A stretch of 64,000 bases of DNA from Nitrospirota bacterium. GTDB taxonomy: Bacteria > Nitrospirota > Thermodesulfovibrionia > Thermodesulfovibrionales > Magnetobacteriaceae. The notes beneath the pieces were generated by a model. It was not told the origin of the DNA, searched no databases, and was given only the letters and a program-made list of their open reading frames with translations. Position numbers and translations under genes: made by a program. The stretch spans positions 248,001-312,000 of the forward strand of contig JADFXG010000001.1 of NCBI GenBank assembly GCA_015233895.1. Reading direction: 5' to 3'. Numbering within the stretch: position 1 is the stretch's first letter; each line of letters opens with the position of its first letter. Positions 389 through 58,256 of this stretch are shown here, piece after piece.

Positions 389-1036
389 TTAATGACCACC
401 AGCGCCCCCTGCTCCCTTTCCGCCATAGAACCTAATATCTATCCAGTTAAAAAATCCCATTAAAATACCTGTTGCTATAAAGCCGCCCGTGGGCAGGAGC
501 ATTATTAAAAGCGGTTTTGCATGGATTATATCAATTCCCCAAAGAGCCCCCTTGCCAAGGAGTTCCCTGAAGAAACTTATACAAATCAAGGCAAACATAA
601 ATCCAACACCACTGCCTATACCGTCAAAAAAAGACGGTACAACACTGCGTTTGCTGGCAAACACCTCAGCCCTGGTAAGAATCGAGGCAAAGGCAACTAT
701 CAACTGTATGTATAGTCCCATCTGCTTGTAAGCATCCCGTGCAAAAGCTGCCATAGAAAGGTCTGCCACCGTGACCCAGCCTGAAATTATCAACATAAAA
801 ACCGGTATTCTTATTTTAGGATGAATAAACGCCCTGATAGCCGAGACAGTTATATTAACCATTACGGTTACAAACACAACTGCTATGCCCATAAGCGTAC
901 CGGTTTTTAACCCCGTCGTAACCGCTATTGCAGGGCACAAGCTTATCGCAAGCCTGAATATGGCATTTTCTTTGAAAACGCCGATTAAAAGCAGACTCCA
1001 GTAATTAGTGCTCTTCTGTTGGCTTTGCATCTCCAT
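389..1036 (-). CDS. rnfE: Electron transport complex subunit RnfE
   Basis: A polytopic membrane subunit of Rnf, about 215 residues, homologous to NqrD and RnfA. The segment FRLAISLCPAIAVTTGLKTG near the N-terminus contains the conserved membrane Cys. Five or six hydrophobic helices follow, and the protein ends in a short Gly-rich tail. The open frame extends upstream to 1093 inside rnfG, but the ATG at 1036 has an AGGAG ribosome site 9 bases upstream (1046-1050), so translation probably starts there. It overlaps the 3' end of rnfG by about 30 bases, which suggests translational coupling. Confidence 0.94.
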   Translation of the reverse strand: MEMQSQQKSTNYWSLLLIGVFKENAIFRLAISLCPAIAVTTGLKTGTLMGIAVVFVTVMVNITVSAIRAFIHPKIRIPVFMLIISGWVTVADLSMAAFARDAYKQMGLYIQLIVAFASILTRAEVFASKRSVVPSFFDGIGSGVGFMFALICISFFRELLGKGALWGIDIIHAKPLLIMLLPTGGFIATGILMGFFNWIDIRFYGGKGAGGAGGH

Positions 1037-1604
1037 GACCGCCGTCTCCTTTGAGAGCTCCCTGCAAAAACTCAAGGCCTTTTTTAACCCCATCCTCTGT
1101 TACTGCCCTGGATGATATGGTTGCTCCCGTTATTGCCTGTACGTATTCTTTGGTTTCCTCTTTAACTACCTTTAATGTATCTAATTTCTTACCGGGAAAT
1201 TGCTTCTTAAACGACTCAGTACTTACCTCATCACCAAGGCCTGGTGTTTCAGCTTGCTTAAGTATGTCCATATTTTTTATAACGAAATCCTCTCCAACTG
1301 AAAACAAAATGTTTATGTAGCTTGAATACCCTTTACCAAATGCCTGAACAACGTAGCCAAGCACTTTTCCATCTTTTTTAGCTACAAAGTATTCAGCGTG
1401 TTTTTCATGCGGATGCCAATCGCCAAGTTTCTCAATTTTATCGGCCTCAGGCATCATCCGTTGGAGGGCTTCTTTTTTCTCTTTTTCATTTGCCTGAAAT
1501 ATCAGAGGCGAGGTCTTGGCATACACTCCGGCAAGAAGGACGCCGCCCACTATGTAGATTATCAGTAGATTAATCGTTATTTTTATTATTTCTTTTGTAT
1601 TCAT
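1005..1604 (-). CDS. rnfG: Electron transport complex subunit RnfG, FMN-binding
   Basis: A flavoprotein subunit of Rnf, 199 residues, with one N-terminal membrane anchor (about residues 9-30) and an FMN-binding domain. The motif ITGATISS (about 158-165) matches the S/T-G-A-T flavinylation sequon, in which ApbE links FMN covalently to the final Thr (T162). The motif PGLGDEV around residue 121 is also typical of the family. It starts 5 bases after the end of rnfD and overlaps rnfE. No ApbE gene is visible in the window. Confidence 0.95.
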   Translation of the reverse strand: MNTKEIIKITINLLIIYIVGGVLLAGVYAKTSPLIFQANEKEKKEALQRMMPEADKIEKLGDWHPHEKHAEYFVAKKDGKVLGYVVQAFGKGYSSYINILFSVGEDFVIKNMDILKQAETPGLGDEVSTESFKKQFPGKKLDTLKVVKEETKEYVQAITGATISSRAVTEDGVKKGLEFLQGALKGDGGHGDAKPTEEH

Positions 1605-1609
1605 ATGTT

Positions 1610-2611
1610 TTAAGCCTTCTTCTTTGCTCCGAATACTTCTGTACGAAAACCCCTGTCAATAAGAGGAGTGAAACAATTCATAATTAGGATTGAAAACATA
1701 ACACCCTCCGGGTATCCCGCCTTAAGCCTGATTAAAATAGTAAGCAAACCGCATCCAGCGCCAAAGAGCATTTGCCCCTTCTTAGTGGTTGGACAGGTGA
1801 CATAATCCGTTGCCATATAAAAAGCGCCAAGCATAAGGCCTCCGCTAAGAACATGCACCAATGGGTCACCAGTAAATATCCCCTGTTTTCCGCCAAACAC
1901 CCAGGCTCCTGCCGCTACCGATGCTAAAAAAGCCGCCGGTATTCTTAGTGTAATGTACCCTCTCAGGAGTAAAAACGCTGCACCTATGAGTATCGCTATC
2001 ACCGAGGTCTCACCGAGAGACCCAGCCCTGTGGCCTAATAAAAGCTCCGAATACAGGTGCATCTTGCTGCCAAATACCTCTAATAGTTTATCCAGCCCCT
2101 GCTCTTTAAGAATCCCCAGAGGAGTGGCTGTGGTCTTAGCGTCCATTCCAGTAAAATTAGCTATCGGCTGTGCCCATGTGGTCATTGCCCGCGGCCATGT
2201 AATCAACGCAAAAGCGCGTCCCATAAGAGCCGGATTAAAAACATTATAGCCAAGCCCTCCAAACAACTGCTTAGTTATTGCAACGGCAACAAAGGAACTC
2301 AGAAGCGGTATGTAAAACGGCAGAGTTGAGGGCATATTCATTCCTAAAAGGAGACCTGTCAGCACTGCGCTGCCGTCTTTTAACGATATGTCCTTACCTG
2401 CAAGTTTTTGGACAAAATACTCACTCAGTAGTGAACCGATTATACACAGGAGCGTTACAATAACAGCCTTTGGTCCAAAATAATACACACCCATGACAAA
2501 TGTCGGCAAAAGTGTTGCCGTAACCGTCCACATGATCTTATCGACGCTCTCACTACTTTTAATGTGAGGGCTCACAGATACTATTAATTTATTTTCTTTA
2601 CCAGCTTCCAT
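1610..2611 (-). CDS. rnfD: Electron transport complex subunit RnfD
   Basis: A polytopic membrane flavoprotein of Rnf, about 333 residues, related to NqrB. The SPHI segment near the N-terminus and the FNPALMGRAF motif are hallmarks of RnfD/NqrB. The flavin attachment region reads DAKTTATPL (codons about 2149-2117), where most family members have S-G-A-T. The acceptor Thr is kept but the Gly is replaced. The open frame runs upstream to a TTG at 2662 inside rnfC. The ATG at 2611 is preferred because it gives the usual family N-terminus (MEAGKENKLIVSVSPHI) and leaves a 25-base gap after rnfC. Confidence 0.94.
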   Translation of the reverse strand: MEAGKENKLIVSVSPHIKSSESVDKIMWTVTATLLPTFVMGVYYFGPKAVIVTLLCIIGSLLSEYFVQKLAGKDISLKDGSAVLTGLLLGMNMPSTLPFYIPLLSSFVAVAITKQLFGGLGYNVFNPALMGRAFALITWPRAMTTWAQPIANFTGMDAKTTATPLGILKEQGLDKLLEVFGSKMHLYSELLLGHRAGSLGETSVIAILIGAAFLLLRGYITLRIPAAFLASVAAGAWVFGGKQGIFTGDPLVHVLSGGLMLGAFYMATDYVTCPTTKKGQMLFGAGCGLLTILIRLKAGYPEGVMFSILIMNCFTPLIDRGFRTEVFGAKKKA

Positions 2612-2636
2612 TATCTTTCTTATAATTTTCCCATCT

Positions 2637-3953
2637 TTAAGGTTTAACCTGTGTCTTAGCAAGTTTTATCTGCTGAACTATTGGTCTTTTAGCCGGGCAC
2701 ACATACGTACAAGAGCCGCATTCAAAGCAATCGAACAGGTGATAGTCCTTAGCGTCAGCATAATGCCCTTTTTCCGAAAACAGACTTAACATCAGAGGCA
2801 TTAGCCCCATCGGGCAGGCATCAACACATCTGCCACAGCGAATGCAGTTATAAAATTTATCGCTCCCTGTGGCATCCTTTTGTTCAAGCACGACAATGCC
2901 AGAGGTTCCCTTAATTACCGGCGTGTTAAGGTCGTAAAAGGCAAAACCCATCATAGGTCCCCCAGATATAATCTTGCCAGCAGTTGGTTTAAGCCCGCCA
3001 CATGTCTCTATCAACTGTGAAACCGGAGTACCCACCTTAACTTTCAAATTCTTAGGTGACTTAATCCCTCCGCCAGTAACACTCACGACCCTTTCAATCA
3101 ATGGCTTACCGTATCTGCATGCTTCATAGACGGCATTAGCTGTTCCCACATTCTGGACAACAACGCCGACATCCATCGGCAGCCCTCCAGCCGGTACCTC
3201 TCTGCTTAATATGGATTTAATGAGCATTTTCTCGGCACCCTGCGGATACTTAATTTGCAGAGTCCGTACCTCTATGTTTGAGCCCTTTGCCGCTTCAAGC
3301 ATTTTAGTGATGGCATCGGGTTTGTTAGATTCAATTCCTACATAACCTTTGGTAACGCCAAGGATTGCCATTAAAATCTTAAGACCCTCTATGACAGACT
3401 CCGGGTACTCCAGCATGACCCTGTGATCGGCAGTAAGATACGGCTCACACTCGGCGCCGTTAATAATGACGGCATCAATGGGTTTTTCTTTTGGCGGACT
3501 TATTTTTACGTGCGTTGGGAATGTAGCACCGCCCATTCCAACGATACCGGCTGCTTTTATTCTTCCTTTCAGCTCATCCGGCGAGCGCTTAAGGTAATCC
3601 TTATCGTCCTCGGCGGGCTGCCACGCTTCATCAGGGCGGTTTGCGGCTCTTTCTACCACAACTGCTTGAACCATCCGGCCAATTGGCATCAACACAGATG
3701 TAAATGCGGTAACTTTACCGGTTATCGAGGCATGAACCGGTGCTGAAACAAAACCCTCAGGGGTTCCAATTACCTCTCCGGCTTTAACCTCCTGCCCAAC
3801 TTCAACGGAGGCCTTACACGGTGCCCCTATGTGCTGGCTTAGGGGTATCACAACCCTCTGCGGTTGGGGCATTACTTCTATGGATACCGCCGATGCCAAC
3901 TCTTTACGCTCAGGTGGATGTATGCCACCAAGCGGGAACGTCGTAAAACTCAA
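2637..3953 (-). CDS. rnfC: Electron transport complex subunit RnfC
   Basis: The peripheral NADH-side subunit of Rnf, 438 residues. It begins with GGIHPPERKE, typical of RnfC, followed by a barrel-sandwich/SLBB-type region and a Gly-rich NADH/FMN fold (IVGMGGATFPTHVK; NGAECEPYLTADHR). It ends with two 4Fe-4S motifs, CIRCGRCVDACP and CFECGSCTYVCP. The family start aligns with a TTG at 3953. A GGAGG site lies only about 4 bases upstream, so the initiation region is unusual. It is the first gene of rnfCDGEA and has a near-consensus promoter at 4006-4035. Confidence 0.95.
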   Translation of the reverse strand: MSFTTFPLGGIHPPERKELASAVSIEVMPQPQRVVIPLSQHIGAPCKASVEVGQEVKAGEVIGTPEGFVSAPVHASITGKVTAFTSVLMPIGRMVQAVVVERAANRPDEAWQPAEDDKDYLKRSPDELKGRIKAAGIVGMGGATFPTHVKISPPKEKPIDAVIINGAECEPYLTADHRVMLEYPESVIEGLKILMAILGVTKGYVGIESNKPDAITKMLEAAKGSNIEVRTLQIKYPQGAEKMLIKSILSREVPAGGLPMDVGVVVQNVGTANAVYEACRYGKPLIERVVSVTGGGIKSPKNLKVKVGTPVSQLIETCGGLKPTAGKIISGGPMMGFAFYDLNTPVIKGTSGIVVLEQKDATGSDKFYNCIRCGRCVDACPMGLMPLMLSLFSEKGHYADAKDYHLFDCFECGSCTYVCPAKRPIVQQIKLAKTQVKP

Positions 3954-10940: not shown

Positions 10941-10960
10941 TGATTTATAGAATCTGTTTT

Positions 10961-11143
10961 TGCGGGTGAAACTCGCAATTGAAACTTTTTAAGCGGCAGA
11001 ACGCCGGTTAAAAAATTCTAAATCAACAAGCACCAACCAGACATTATCCTAAAACATCCAATCGCTATAAAAAAACCTGAGGTCAAGGAGGCTAGCCTCC
11101 TTGTGGGAGAGGGTTTAAGGGAGAGGGCAAAGCCCTTTCCCTT
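10961..11143. repeat. Structured palindromic repeat element, copy A
   Basis: Four stems are visible in this intergenic stretch. Stem 1 is 7 bp (10961-10977, loop GAA). Stem 2 is TTTTTAA...TTAAAAA (10986-11014) with a G-G mismatch. Stem 3 is a perfect 20-base palindrome, CAAGGAGGCTAGCCTCCTTG (11084-11103). Stem 4 is 12 bp with one G-T pair (11117-11143). A second copy at 45382-45627 shares stems 1-3, with compensatory changes in stems 1 and 3. Both copies lie just downstream of the stop of a minus-strand operon. Confidence 0.75.
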
Positions 11144-11150
11144 ACTCAAT

Positions 11151-12005
11151 TTACCTCTGACCGTCCCACAGTCTGGGGTCAAGCACATCACGCAGACCCT
11201 CGCCAAGCAGGTTATATCCTAAAACGGTAATTAAAATAGCCATTCCCGGAAACACAGAAAGCCACCACGCTATTTCAAGGTTATCCTTACCGGCAGAGAG
11301 AATATTACCCCAGCTTGGAGTTGGAGGCTGTACGCCGATACCAAGAAAGCTAAGGGCAGATTCAACAAGAATGGCCCCTGCTATGCCAAGCACCGCTGAG
11401 ACAATGACAGGGGCAAGGGCATTGGGCAACATGTGTTTAATTATCAGTCTGAGGTCAGACGCTCCTATGCTCTTAGCAGAAAGAACAAATTCCCGGCTCT
11501 TTAGCGACAAAAACTCCGCCCTCACCAGCCGCGCCACACCCATCCACGACGTTAACCCTATCACAGCCATTATATTCCATATAGTTGAATCAAGAAAGGC
11601 AATTACCGCTAAAATCAAAAAAAACGTAGGGATTGCAAGCATAATATCCACAAAACGCATTATTACCCTGTCAACAAAAGAGCCATAAAATCCGGCTGCC
11701 GCACCTGCCGCTATCCCAGTTAAGGTGGCTAATCCCACAGAGACAAACCCCACAGAAAGTGAAATCCGGGCGCCATAGAGCATCCTGCTTAACACATCAC
11801 GGCCAAGATCGTCAGTGCCAAGAAGATGAGACATATCCGGAGCAGACAGGATGTGGTATCTGTCAATCGCCTCAGGATTATACGGACATATAAGGGGAGC
11901 AAATATAGCCGCCAGTGTCAGAAAGACAACCACCACACCCCCTGATATGGTAAGCACATTGAAACCGATTCGTTTTATGAATGTGTCTTTTAAAATTGCC
12001 GACAC
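11151..12005 (-). CDS. ABC transporter permease, OppC/DppC family
   Basis: An inner-membrane permease of 284 residues of the peptide/nickel importer class. It has an N-terminal helix, the typical LLGTDDLGRDVLSRMLYGAR segment after the first periplasmic loop, and an EAA-like cytoplasmic motif (SAKSIGASDLRLIIKHMLPN). The usual partners (OppB-type permease, ATPases, binding protein) are absent from both sides. The start is odd. The GTG at 12005 is only 1 base from an AAGGAG site that follows the radical SAM stop, while an ATT three codons later is better spaced. It is probably co-transcribed with the radical SAM gene, since their frames lie 5 bases apart. Confidence 0.9.
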   Translation of the reverse strand: MSAILKDTFIKRIGFNVLTISGGVVVVFLTLAAIFAPLICPYNPEAIDRYHILSAPDMSHLLGTDDLGRDVLSRMLYGARISLSVGFVSVGLATLTGIAAGAAAGFYGSFVDRVIMRFVDIMLAIPTFFLILAVIAFLDSTIWNIMAVIGLTSWMGVARLVRAEFLSLKSREFVLSAKSIGASDLRLIIKHMLPNALAPVIVSAVLGIAGAILVESALSFLGIGVQPPTPSWGNILSAGKDNLEIAWWLSVFPGMAILITVLGYNLLGEGLRDVLDPRLWDGQR

Positions 12006-34388: not shown

Positions 34389-34546
34389 TACCGAGTTGCA
34401 ATCTAAACTATAATTTAAAGAGGAGATTACGACGTCGCTACGCTCCTCGTAATGACAGATAGGGAAGCTCATGTACAAGCCTCACGCCGTCATTGCGAAC
34501 CCCCGCAGGGTGTGTGGCAATCTCCTCTTTTGAGCGCAACTTGGTA
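34389..34546. repeat. MITE-like inverted-repeat element between divergent operons
   Basis: The stretch 34309-34731 carries no gene. It holds an element whose outer ends are TACCGAGTTGC (34389-34399) and the inverse of TACCAAGTTGC (34536-34546). Longer inner arms (34417-34455 and 34490-34530) share AAAGAGGAGATT and end in GTAATGAC/GTCATTGC. Related copies lie at 57948-58256, with one end alone at 45483-45520. No coding capacity is seen, so it would need a transposase in trans. Confidence 0.65.
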
Positions 34547-45250: not shown

Positions 45251-45381
45251 GCTCTATTATACAACATAAATATGTAAAATTTGGCAGCTTCTTTCTCGGC
45301 CAAAACAGCAAACCAAGGCTCTTGCACTTCAGTACAGGATTGCAATAATATTTATAAATCTTTTAATCTTTTCGTCTGTTT

Positions 45382-45627
45382 AGCGGGCAGAGCTCGCTGT
45401 GAAACTTTTTAAGCGGCGGTACGCCGGTTAAAAAAATATTTACCAACAATAACAGTCAAAATGGCAAATATATTAAAAGCTGAGATTGCCACACCCCCTT
45501 GCGGGGGTTCGCAATGACGGCTTGAGATTATCGCTGACAAAAAACCTGGGGTCAAGGGGACTAGTCCCCTTGCGGCAGGGGAATCACCTTTAGGGGAAGG
45601 GATTATAAGGGAGGGGTGAGGCACCCC
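45382..45627. repeat. Structured palindromic repeat element, copy B
   Basis: This copy matches the element at 10961-11143. Stem 1 is AGCGGGC-AGA-GCTCGCT (45382-45398). Stem 2 is TTTTTAA...TTAAAAA (45406-45434). Stem 3 is the perfect palindrome CAAGGGGACTAGTCCCCTTG (45553-45572). A further stem GGGGTG-AGG-CACCCC lies at 45613-45627. Between stems 2 and 3 it carries about 49 extra bases, including one end of the GCAATGAC repeat (45483-45520). It lies just after the mdtC-like stop on the minus strand. Confidence 0.75.
45483..45520. repeat. Solo end of the GCAATGAC MITE-like repeat, nested in copy B
   Basis: AGATTGCCACACCCCCTTGC followed by GGGGGTTCGCAATGAC is one arm of the element seen whole at 34389-34546 and 57948-58256. 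It interrupts copy B of the structured element, which suggests later insertion. Confidence 0.55.
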
Positions 45628-45674
45628 CGCCGTTATGGGCAGCGCCATCCCTTATATAATATAATTTTCTTCTT

Positions 45675-48600
45675 TCATTCTACTCTGCGTTTTCTGAACC
45701 TTTGTACCCATAACCTCAGTCTGTCGAGGTACAAATAAATTACCGGCGTTGTGTAAAGGGTCAGCATCTGGCTCAAAATTAATCCGCCGACAATTGTAGT
45801 CCCCAGAGGGCGGCGAAGCTCTGAGCCAACACCTGTGCCAAGGGCAAGGGGCAGTGTCCCTAAAAGTGCCGACATCGTTGTCATCATAATCGGCCTGAAT
45901 CTTAGAAGGCATGCCTCATAGATTGCATCCTTAGGGCTTTTTCCGTGTCTGCGTTCGGTATCCAGTGCAAAATCCACCATCATTATCCCATTTTTCTTCA
46001 CAATTCCTATCAGAAGTATTATCCCTATGATTGCTATTATGCTTAACTCCATTTTGAATATGAAAAGGGCTGCCACCGCCCCAACTCCTGCTGAGGGAAG
46101 CGTGGAAAGAATCGTTATCGGATGAACATAGCTTTCATAGAGCACTCCGAGCACAATGTAAACAGCAATCAAAGCGGCAAGTATCAGCAAGGGCTCATTA
46201 GCAAGGGAGTCTTTAAACGCCTGCGCTGTGCCGGCAAACGTTCCACGCACAGTTTTTGGCATTCCCATCTCTAAAGCAGCTCTCTCTATTGCCTTTACCC
46301 CATCGCCAAGCGCTGTACCCGGAGCGAGATTAAACGATATCGTTGTTGCCGGAAACTGCCCCTGATGATTTACCGCTAAAGGGGTTGGAGTTTCCTCGTA
46401 TCGGCTGAAGGCACTCAGCGGAATACGTCTTCCATCCACGGTAAAAACATTGATGTCTTTCAGCGTGTCAGAGTACTGCCAGTACTGCGGAGCAGCCTCC
46501 ATTACCACGTGGTATTGGTTTAGCGCCGTGTATGTAACAGAGACCTGCCGCTGACCGTAAGAGTTATACAGGGCAGCATCTATAGCCTGTGGAGTTATGC
46601 CAAAGCGTGAGGCCGTGTCGCGGTCTATCGCAAGTGTAACTTGCCGCCCCCCAACCTGTAAATCACTGTTGACATCAACAATCTGTGGCATGGTTTTTAA
46701 TTTCCCGGTCAGTTTCTGTGTCCACATATTAAGCTCAGCTATGTTTTCCCCCTGAAGAGTATATTGATACAGTGCGCCACCTATGCGGCCTCCAATACGA
46801 ATGTCCTGCACGGGCTGAAGAAACGTGGGCGCTCCTGCAACAGTGTTAAGCTTTTTGCGCAGCCTTTTCATGATTTCCTGAGCGGAGGATTTTCGTTTTT
46901 CAAACGGAGTAAGGGAAAGGAATAACCGTCCTGTGTTTGTGGTTGAGCCCCCACCGCCGCCGCCTCCGGTAAATCCCAGCACATGCTCGATATCCGGATC
47001 CTTTTGTATGATGTTGATGATTTGCGTAAGTTTGCCCTTCATCGCCTGAAACGATGTGTCCTGTGAGGCTTGAATGCTCCCTGCAATTCGTCCGCTGTCT
47101 TGTTCCGGGAAAAACCCCTTTGGCACCGTAACAAACAGATACACGCTGGTTATTGCCGTAAGTATCGTTAAACAGAGCATTAAAAATGAGTGACGAAGCG
47201 CTACATTTAAACTCTTTTCATAGAGATGCAATATCTTGTTAAAGAAACCCTCACTAATAGCATACAAAAACCCGTGCTTACGTTCCTTTTTATCCTTAAT
47301 AACGGTAGCACACATCATAGGTGTTGTCGTAAGAGAGACTGCCAAAGAGATTAGTATTGCTACTGAAAGCGTGACGGCAAACTCCTTAAAAAGCCTCCCA
47401 ATCATCCCCTGCATAAGTAAAATCGGAATAAACACCGCTACCAGTGACAGACTCATAGAAACCACCGTAAAAGCAATCTCTCTTGAACCAATCACCGCCG
47501 CCTCATGCGGAGACATCCCCTTTTCCCTGTATCGCGATATGTTTTCAAGCACAACAATAGCGTCATCCACAACAAACCCTGTGGCAACCGTAAGAGCCAT
47601 CAGAGAAAGATTATTTAAAGAATAACCCAACAGATACATCACGGCAAACGTACCGGTAATGGAAACAAACACGGCAACACCAGGCGCTAATGTCGCTCTG
47701 AAATCCCTTATAAACCAGAATACGACAAGTATCACTAAAATACCAGAAAGTACCAGCGAGCGCTCAACTTCTTTAAGGGAGCCTCTTATTGGAGGCGTCC
47801 TGTCAAGCACTACAGATAAATCCACGGCAGCAGGTAAAATTGTCTTTAACTGAGGCATAACATCCCGAATGCCCTTCACTGTCTCTATAATGTTGGCTCC
47901 TGGCTGTCTGAAGATAACCAGCATAACAGCCTGCCTTCCGTTAACCGAACCGGCAACACGCAAATCCTCAACCGAGTCCTCCACAGAAGCGACATCGGAA
48001 AGACGCAGCACTGTACCATTATCTGAAGAGATAATAAGAGGAAGGTACTCTTTTGCGCCATGCAATTGGTCATTGGTTACAATTTCCCAGGTTTTATCTC
48101 CCTGAGATATTTGTCCCTTTGGGCGGTTAACATTATTGGAGGCAATCACGCTGCGAACTGTCTCAAGTCCAACGCCGTATCTGCTTAACGCATTAGGGTT
48201 TAGCTCTACCCTTACGGCAGGCAGCGACCCACCACCGATAAACACTTGGCCAACCCCTTTCATCTGAGAGATTTTCTGCTGGAGCACGCTGGATGCAATG
48301 TCATACATCCGCGACTTACTGACAGTGTCAGAGATGAGCGCCAGTATGAGAATCGGGGCATCAGCCGGATTAACTTTCCGGTATGAGGGGTTAGTGGGAA
48401 GGTTTGCCGGAAGATAACTGCGTGCTGCGTTGATAGCGGCCTGAACGTCACGCGCAGCGCCGTTGATATCTCTGTCAAGCTCAAATTGAAGCGTAACCGA
48501 GGTTGAACCCCTGTAACTAGTTGATGTCATCTCGGTAACACCGGCTATGCGGGTAAACTGTTTTTCAAGGGGAGCGGCAACAGATGTCGCCATTGTCTCA

Positions 48601-57947: not shown

Positions 57948-58256
57948 TTGAGACCGTTGCAAAATTCCCAAAATGGGGGAAAAGTATTTCCCAATTAATA
58001 CCGAGTAGCAGCCTAAAATATAATAATGATGAGATTACCACGTCGCTATCGCTCCTCGTAATGACGGATAGGTACGCCCACGCACAGCCCACGTCGCTAT
58101 CGCTCCTCGTAATGACGGATAGGTACGCCCACGCACAGCCCACGCCGTCATTGCGAACCACCGCAGGGGGTGTGGCAATCTCATCCTTTTTCTATAACAT
58201 TTTGTTATATTTTTGAACTCAACTTTGGTGTTATAATATTTTTGCAACGGTCTCAA
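57948..58256. repeat. Compound inverted-repeat element with 51-bp tandem duplication
   Basis: The interval 57795-58264 has no gene. It contains an element bounded by a perfect 17-base inverted repeat, TTGAGACCGTTGCAAAA (57948-57964 and 58240-58256). Nested inside is a copy of the GCAATGAC-type repeat (about 58028-58184), whose left arm has a 51-base unit repeated twice in tandem (58039-58140). The outer right end lies 9 bases from the batC stop. Confidence 0.65.

Follow-up and report, generated by a model that had tools for sequence, protein, structure and literature searches.

A dispersed repeat of two hairpin modules in a Nitrospirota genome: a putative REP/MITE-like element with signs of template switching between its arms

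The stretch of Nitrospirota DNA analysed here, 64,000 nt long and referred to as the window, carries two plus-strand copies of a hairpin-rich repeat, each lying directly 3' of a gene encoded on the minus strand (copy 1, stop at 11151; copy 2, gene end at 45675), as the original prediction had stated. Rereading of the window sequence located both copies at the coordinates first reported, 10961–11143 and 45382–45627, where they had been described as sharing three stems. Both copies are real; the unit, however, is larger than described, spanning about 200 bp and comprising four hairpins (H1 to H4), the last of which had been overlooked, and it starts 5' of the positions originally given, at ~10946 in copy 1 and ~45353 in copy 2. 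Copy 1 (10946–11144, plus strand), from which part of the 5' box is absent, contains H1 (10961–10977), a 7-bp stem with a conserved G-T pair (TGCGGGT-GAA-ACTCGCA), followed by H2 (10986–11014; TTTTTAAGCGGC...CGCCGGTTAAAAA), the 20-base palindrome H3 (11084–11103; CAAGGAGGCTAGCCTCCTTG), and H4 (11116–11144), situated 7 nt from the stop codon of the minus-strand gene (11151–11153). Copy 2 (45353–45656, plus strand) begins with the 5' box TATAAATCTTTTAATCTTTTCGTCTGTTT (45353–45381), where the family has its sharply defined 5' boundary, and continues with H1 (45382–45398; AGCGGGC-AGA-GCTCGCT), H2 (45406–45434), the H3 palindrome (45553–45572; CAAGGGGACTAGTCCCCTTG), and H4 (45604–45656), which has a long loop of 35 nt and lies ~19 nt from the gene end at 45675. 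In the middle of this copy, at ~45482–45520 on the plus strand, an unrelated repeat is nested (GATTGCCACACCCCCTTGCGGGGGTTCGCAATGAC). Between the two copies, H3 differs at four positions, corresponding to two base pairs, and is perfect in both, while H1 exchanges T-A for A-T and T-A for C-G and retains its G-T pair; both observations reproduce those originally made. This nested sequence belongs to a second dispersed repeat (GATTGCCACACCCCC..GGGGGTTCGCAATGAC), which occurs inside copy 2 (about 45475–45526), at ~34481–34531 and ~58141–58189 of the window, and within other copies of the hairpin repeat.

A 223-nt query retrieved 45 matches in the same genome (E values from 4e-113 to 6e-5). Model R1, built on the 5' half, matched this genome 39 times at E <= 0.001, with scores of >= 68 bits in 34 cases, and model R2, built on the 3' half, matched it 58 times. 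The repeat thus defined consists of a 28-nt box followed by H1 and H2, an AT-rich spacer, and then H3 and H4, and its hairpins are near-perfect and very variable in sequence among copies. Among the 60 genomes searched, R1 (box, H1 and H2) was detected in all four genomes of the genus and in none of the 56 others, and R2 (H3 and H4) was detected in 20, namely 18 of the 19 genomes of the taxonomic family and two of the 41 others, each of the latter two with a single, weak match; in five genomes of this search R2 matches numbered at least 74 per genome. The full unit is therefore limited to the genus, and the 3' module is spread through the family. The 5' boundary is sharp: across 65 copies, the DNA preceding the box is unrelated and carries almost no information (from about zero up to 0.5 bit), and inside the box 1.3–2 bits are reached within three bases in most columns. 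At three loci (L010, L035 and L036), however, the ~200 bp before the 5' box are common to all three and include a motif resembling CTTTTTGGCGACAACTCGGTAT; this common stretch is perhaps a third module. None of the matches listed in the Nitrospirota literature on REP sequences or miniature inverted repeats concerned such repeats, which is weak evidence of absence. The make-up of this repeat family is new; its kind, REP/MITE-like, is known.

Compensatory base changes, which are usually regarded as the strongest evidence that an RNA is functional, are not confined to the two window copies. Alignment A1 (5' module) comprised 32 copies, and A2 (3' module) comprised 26 of them, the six omitted having an irregular or unrecognised H4. 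Cells changed on both sides of a retained pair numbered 21 in A1 and 45 in A2, against 4.5 and 9.7 in shuffled alignments, with 0 of 500 shuffles as high in either case, although kinship among copies may inflate these counts. Paired cells amounted to 94.4% in A1 (shuffles, 89.8%) and 98.3% in A2 (shuffles, 88.7%), and sliding the partners by one to three columns lowered pairing to 40–59% and 45–70%, respectively. Furthermore, 45 distinct H4 hairpins, whose arms are 8–13 bases long (10–12 in most) and change length together, are Watson-Crick in 468 of 501 pairs. Absence of compensatory changes from further copies had been named as the observation that would count against the original prediction, and further copies do show them. 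The proposal that two GC-rich hairpins merely resemble each other by chance has a negligible probability and was rejected on copy number (45 matches of the query, and 39 and 58 of the two models, in one genome) and on these pairing statistics.

Placement relative to genes was assessed after collapsing orthologs, which reduced 82 copies to 61 loci (among the 21 dropped, L078 and L086 are less certainly orthologous), with genes taken as uncurated open reading frames chosen by length. The 3' side of the repeat faces a gene end at 38 of the 56 loci having a gene on that side (p 0.010), and the distance from H4 to the end of the convergent gene has a median of 13 nt, being <= 45 nt in 36 of the 38. 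The original description of the two window copies as lying just 3' of a minus-strand operon hence extends to most other loci of the repeat. No such closeness is seen on the 5' side (median 132 nt; Mann-Whitney p 2.7e-10), where the neighbouring gene points its end at the repeat in 34 of 59 loci (p 0.30). Terminator-like sites were predicted on the plus strand of 35 of the 82 copies, compared with 5.2 in shuffled sequences and with four of 82 on the other strand; most of the 35, though not all, correspond to H4, and a simple terminator scan of the two window copies found none. Judged from these predictions, H4 could probably stop transcription arriving from the 5' side. As in intrinsic terminators, a T-rich tail comes after H4 on the plus strand in many copies; H4 differs from them in being the final segment of a longer conserved repeat and in mostly lacking a complete T run. 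A terminator serving the abutting convergent gene, suggested by the T run that follows H3 on the corresponding strand, was also considered and rejected, only four of the 82 copies passing.

These features bear on the possibility that the repeat is a structured RNA transcribed from the plus strand, either a small RNA or a common 3' UTR element terminated by H4, with its stems under selection, a reading that we regard as possible but doubtful. The strand asymmetry of the terminator-like sites agrees with it, as does the H1 G-T pair, which nearly all copies retain: it is present in 32 of 32 copies in A1 and is resolved in L098 and L106. Mismatches also lean towards G-T over A-C in H1 (85 versus 2, nearly all at this one pair), in H2 (26 versus 9 over copies), and in the distinct H4 hairpins (20 versus 4, the hairpins not being phylogenetically independent), and the excess in H4 and H2 favours strand-specific selection. 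H3, however, has no strand bias (14 versus 12, in a list that includes a few misassigned hairpins), and folding energy is equal between the strands (43 of 82, p 0.59). Nor does the repeat have a conserved promoter, information being at background upstream of the 5' box, and the upstream gene, as given above, points its end at the repeat in no more than 34 of 59 loci. No Rfam family reached its gathering score in the window, and among seven loci the best Rfam match at the repeat was Clostridiales-2 RNA, at 28.6 bits, below the gathering score of 58.6. An RNA role is possible in view of the invariant H1 G-T pair, the G-T excess in H4, and the terminator-like H4 on one strand.

The copies themselves suggest another origin for the complementarity of the arms. 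Orthologs L034 and L119 have identical H4 arms around a loop that is inverted, AGC to GCT. The H4 of L016_3499 reads exactly as the reverse complement of the most frequent H4 form, found in 11 copies, and ~20 bases 5' of this hairpin are complementary to the copy's own 3' flank. At L019, L014 and L026, the H3 arms are lengthened to 16–20 bp, the usual CCTGGGGT or CCGGGGGT before H3 being replaced by the complement of the copy's own 3' flank, and these three flanks differ from one another. H2 loops in 76 copies read GAA (54), GTA (13), TTC, the reverse complement of GAA (3), and others (6). H3 is inverted in L117 and L080, the latter inversion concerning a single base that may be a plain substitution, and in L076 the H4 arm is extended relative to orthologs L032 and L101. 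Template switching between the arms of inverted repeats is described in PMC8794818 and PMC8604942 as yielding changes of this sort, compensatory without selection. Taken together, the loop inversions, the inverted hairpin, and the flank-copied arms point to template switching. In addition, the H3 type differs within the ortholog pairs L034/L119 and L036/L090, from which we infer exchange between copies.

Since several copies carry these footprints of arm-templated copying, the compensatory changes observed here do not imply selection on structure. The original conclusion that selection acts on structure is supported only in part: the retained H1 G-T pair and the preponderance of G-T over A-C mismatches speak for it, whereas arm copying could produce the compensation without it. 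Moreover, something maintains the H1 G-T pair, because template copying would erase it. With dozens of copies in each genome, the family could serve to gauge how far template switching mimics covariation.

Dispersal in many copies, the sharp 5' end, and the genus-limited full unit make a mobile REP-like unit the best supported of the options originally put forward. The repeat resembles REP, BIME and REPIN sequences in being extragenic, present in many copies, made of paired hairpins, located near gene ends, and subject to compensatory changes in its arms, which have been described for REPINs (PMC3116915). H3 and H4 taken singly fit REP sequences, as 20–40 bp extragenic palindromes in a high-copy 3' module. 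On the other hand, the whole unit is ~200 bp long, carries four hairpins in two modules, and is limited to one family and genus. A GTAG or CGTC tetranucleotide at one hairpin end is given as a hallmark of REP/REPIN sequences in PMC3733652. The consensus of the repeat lacks the GTAG tag; CGTC occurs in the 5' box ~6 nt before H1, with its G only 62% conserved, and no tag tetranucleotide was found at H3 or H4.

Movement of a classical REP/REPIN family by a RAYT (Y1) transposase would account for the high copy number and for extragenic hairpins behind genes, and two Y1-like genes are present in the same genome. In REP/REPIN families of the GTAG class, copies of the repeat flank the RAYT gene. The repeat studied here, however, adjoins neither of the two Y1-like genes, the nearest listed 3'-module match on their contig (C4) being ~46 kb away, and their flanks and inserts carry a different palindrome, GGGCGACC..GGTCGCCC. 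Across the family, the 3' module occurs in only three of 27 Y1 loci (windows of ~3 kb), separated from the gene by some 400 bp or more; four genomes (G002, G004, G010 and G014) are rich in the 3' module without a Y1 match, and G009, with seven Y1 matches, has no 3' module. An association with a REP transposase, for which the original prediction had proposed a test, was thus found neither in this genome nor in the family, and we consider mobilisation by RAYT improbable. The two Y1/RAYT-like genes are adjacent to each other (L054, 1390–2019 and 2315–2950; G000 contig C4, ~134–135 kb), with GGGCGACC..GGTCGCCC around and inside them. Some copies of the repeat also have, in their spacer, palindromes GGGGCAGCCCC resembling those at these genes.

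Comparison with MITEs, among which those derived from IS200/IS605 elements have subterminal hairpins, reveals a similar mixture. Like MITEs, the repeat is short, non-coding and dispersed, has a discrete 5' end, and lacks an internal autonomous gene; unlike them, it has no terminal inverted repeats matching an autonomous transposon, its two ends being unlike each other, and neither target duplication nor a partner insertion sequence was found. Among the loci retrieved, none was seen to hold a larger element combining these ends with a transposase gene, and no mobilising enzyme was found for the repeat. At 14 loci of this genome compared with G001 to G003, neither a target-site duplication nor a clean empty site was observed. 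The 5' module was absent from 12 of 13 G003, 10 of 10 G001, and 9 of 9 G002 regions, a comparison biased towards absence because the loci were chosen for lacking a copy matched on both flanks, and in which four G003 regions are cut off close to the site by the end of their contig and one (L134), with a 19-bit match at E 0.087, was scored as absent. The junction at L018/L129 resembles a deletion in G003. Where orthologous flanks are present, the repeats are often old and common to both genomes, and they are almost identical between the orthologous loci L110/L114, L031/L081 and L011/L077. In the last case, comparing G000 with G003, ~2.7 kb around a facing pair (about 700 to 3400) is nearly identical and the surroundings are 86–98% identical; because the high identity extends beyond the repeats, this is likely a recent recombined tract and not a transposition. 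Since no clean junction was found and orthologous elements are often old and shared, movement is deduced from dispersal.

On balance, we favour, somewhat more than we doubt, the interpretation of the repeat as a non-coding, non-autonomous REP/MITE-like dispersed element of ~200 bp with two hairpin modules, whose arms are kept complementary partly by template switching. The unit would have been dispersed through transposition by an enzyme acting in trans. After insertion, template switching during replication, in which one arm of a hairpin is copied from the other, would together with exchange between copies preserve much of the complementarity of the arms, so that selection need not be the sole cause. 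If H4 halts transcription from the 5' side, insertion behind a convergent gene could be harmless or even useful. Transport as phage or plasmid cargo was rejected: there were no matches in phages or plasmids, and one exact pattern searched in viral contigs returned none.

Copies of the repeat also occur in nearby pairs. Among pairs within 3.5 kb, the 5' ends face each other in four of five in this genome (simulated P 0.0002) and in two of three in G001 (simulated P 0.0017); in each genome the other pairs comprise one back-to-back and no tandem arrangement. The enclosed genes are accessory, encoding a Phd-like antitoxin, a HicA toxin, a SIR2-like protein, a VCH_CASS14 cassette protein, and unknowns, together with one protein that we take to be DUF4062-like. 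A 236-aa cargo family, present in four of 21 genomes, is enclosed by facing copies in each of the three genus members having it, at two distinct loci, and a 262-aa cargo protein is present in one of 21 genomes. Such an arrangement could mean that the copies serve as boundaries of accessory gene cassettes or as sites of their recombination, the facing inverted copies marking or moving the enclosed gene. However, facing order is also expected from the anchoring of H4 at two convergent gene ends, no integron integrase scored above the TIGR02249 cut-off in any of four genomes, and the single copy that G003 has at one locus resembles the outcome of a deletion; we therefore consider this explanation of the repeat very improbable. 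Integron attC sites are structured, palindromic, and in direct orientation. The repeat resembles them in its structure, its palindromes, and its flanking of cassette-like genes in some pairs, and differs from them in that its pairs are inverted and no integrase above the cut-off accompanies them. A more speculative proposal, to which we assign a low probability, is that the facing pairs constitute a cassette system of the genus, in which a gene enclosed by two inverted copies, be it a toxin-antitoxin gene, a SIR2-like gene or another accessory gene, would be gained, lost or transferred as a unit by a recombinase or by recombination between copies, single copies being vacated sites. The facing pairs at accessory genes and the position of the 3' module behind stop codons across the family offer further testable points. 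Facing copies around accessory genes were observed at L011 (1184–2639), L014 (1182–2205), L016 (1170–3733) and L124 (about 320–2320), as well as at L095 (1556–2971), L102 (1555–3227) and L089 (1555–3325). One locus is represented in three species (L039, L102 and L117) by different states: a pair of copies enclosing the 262-aa gene, a pair with only a short remnant, and a single copy.
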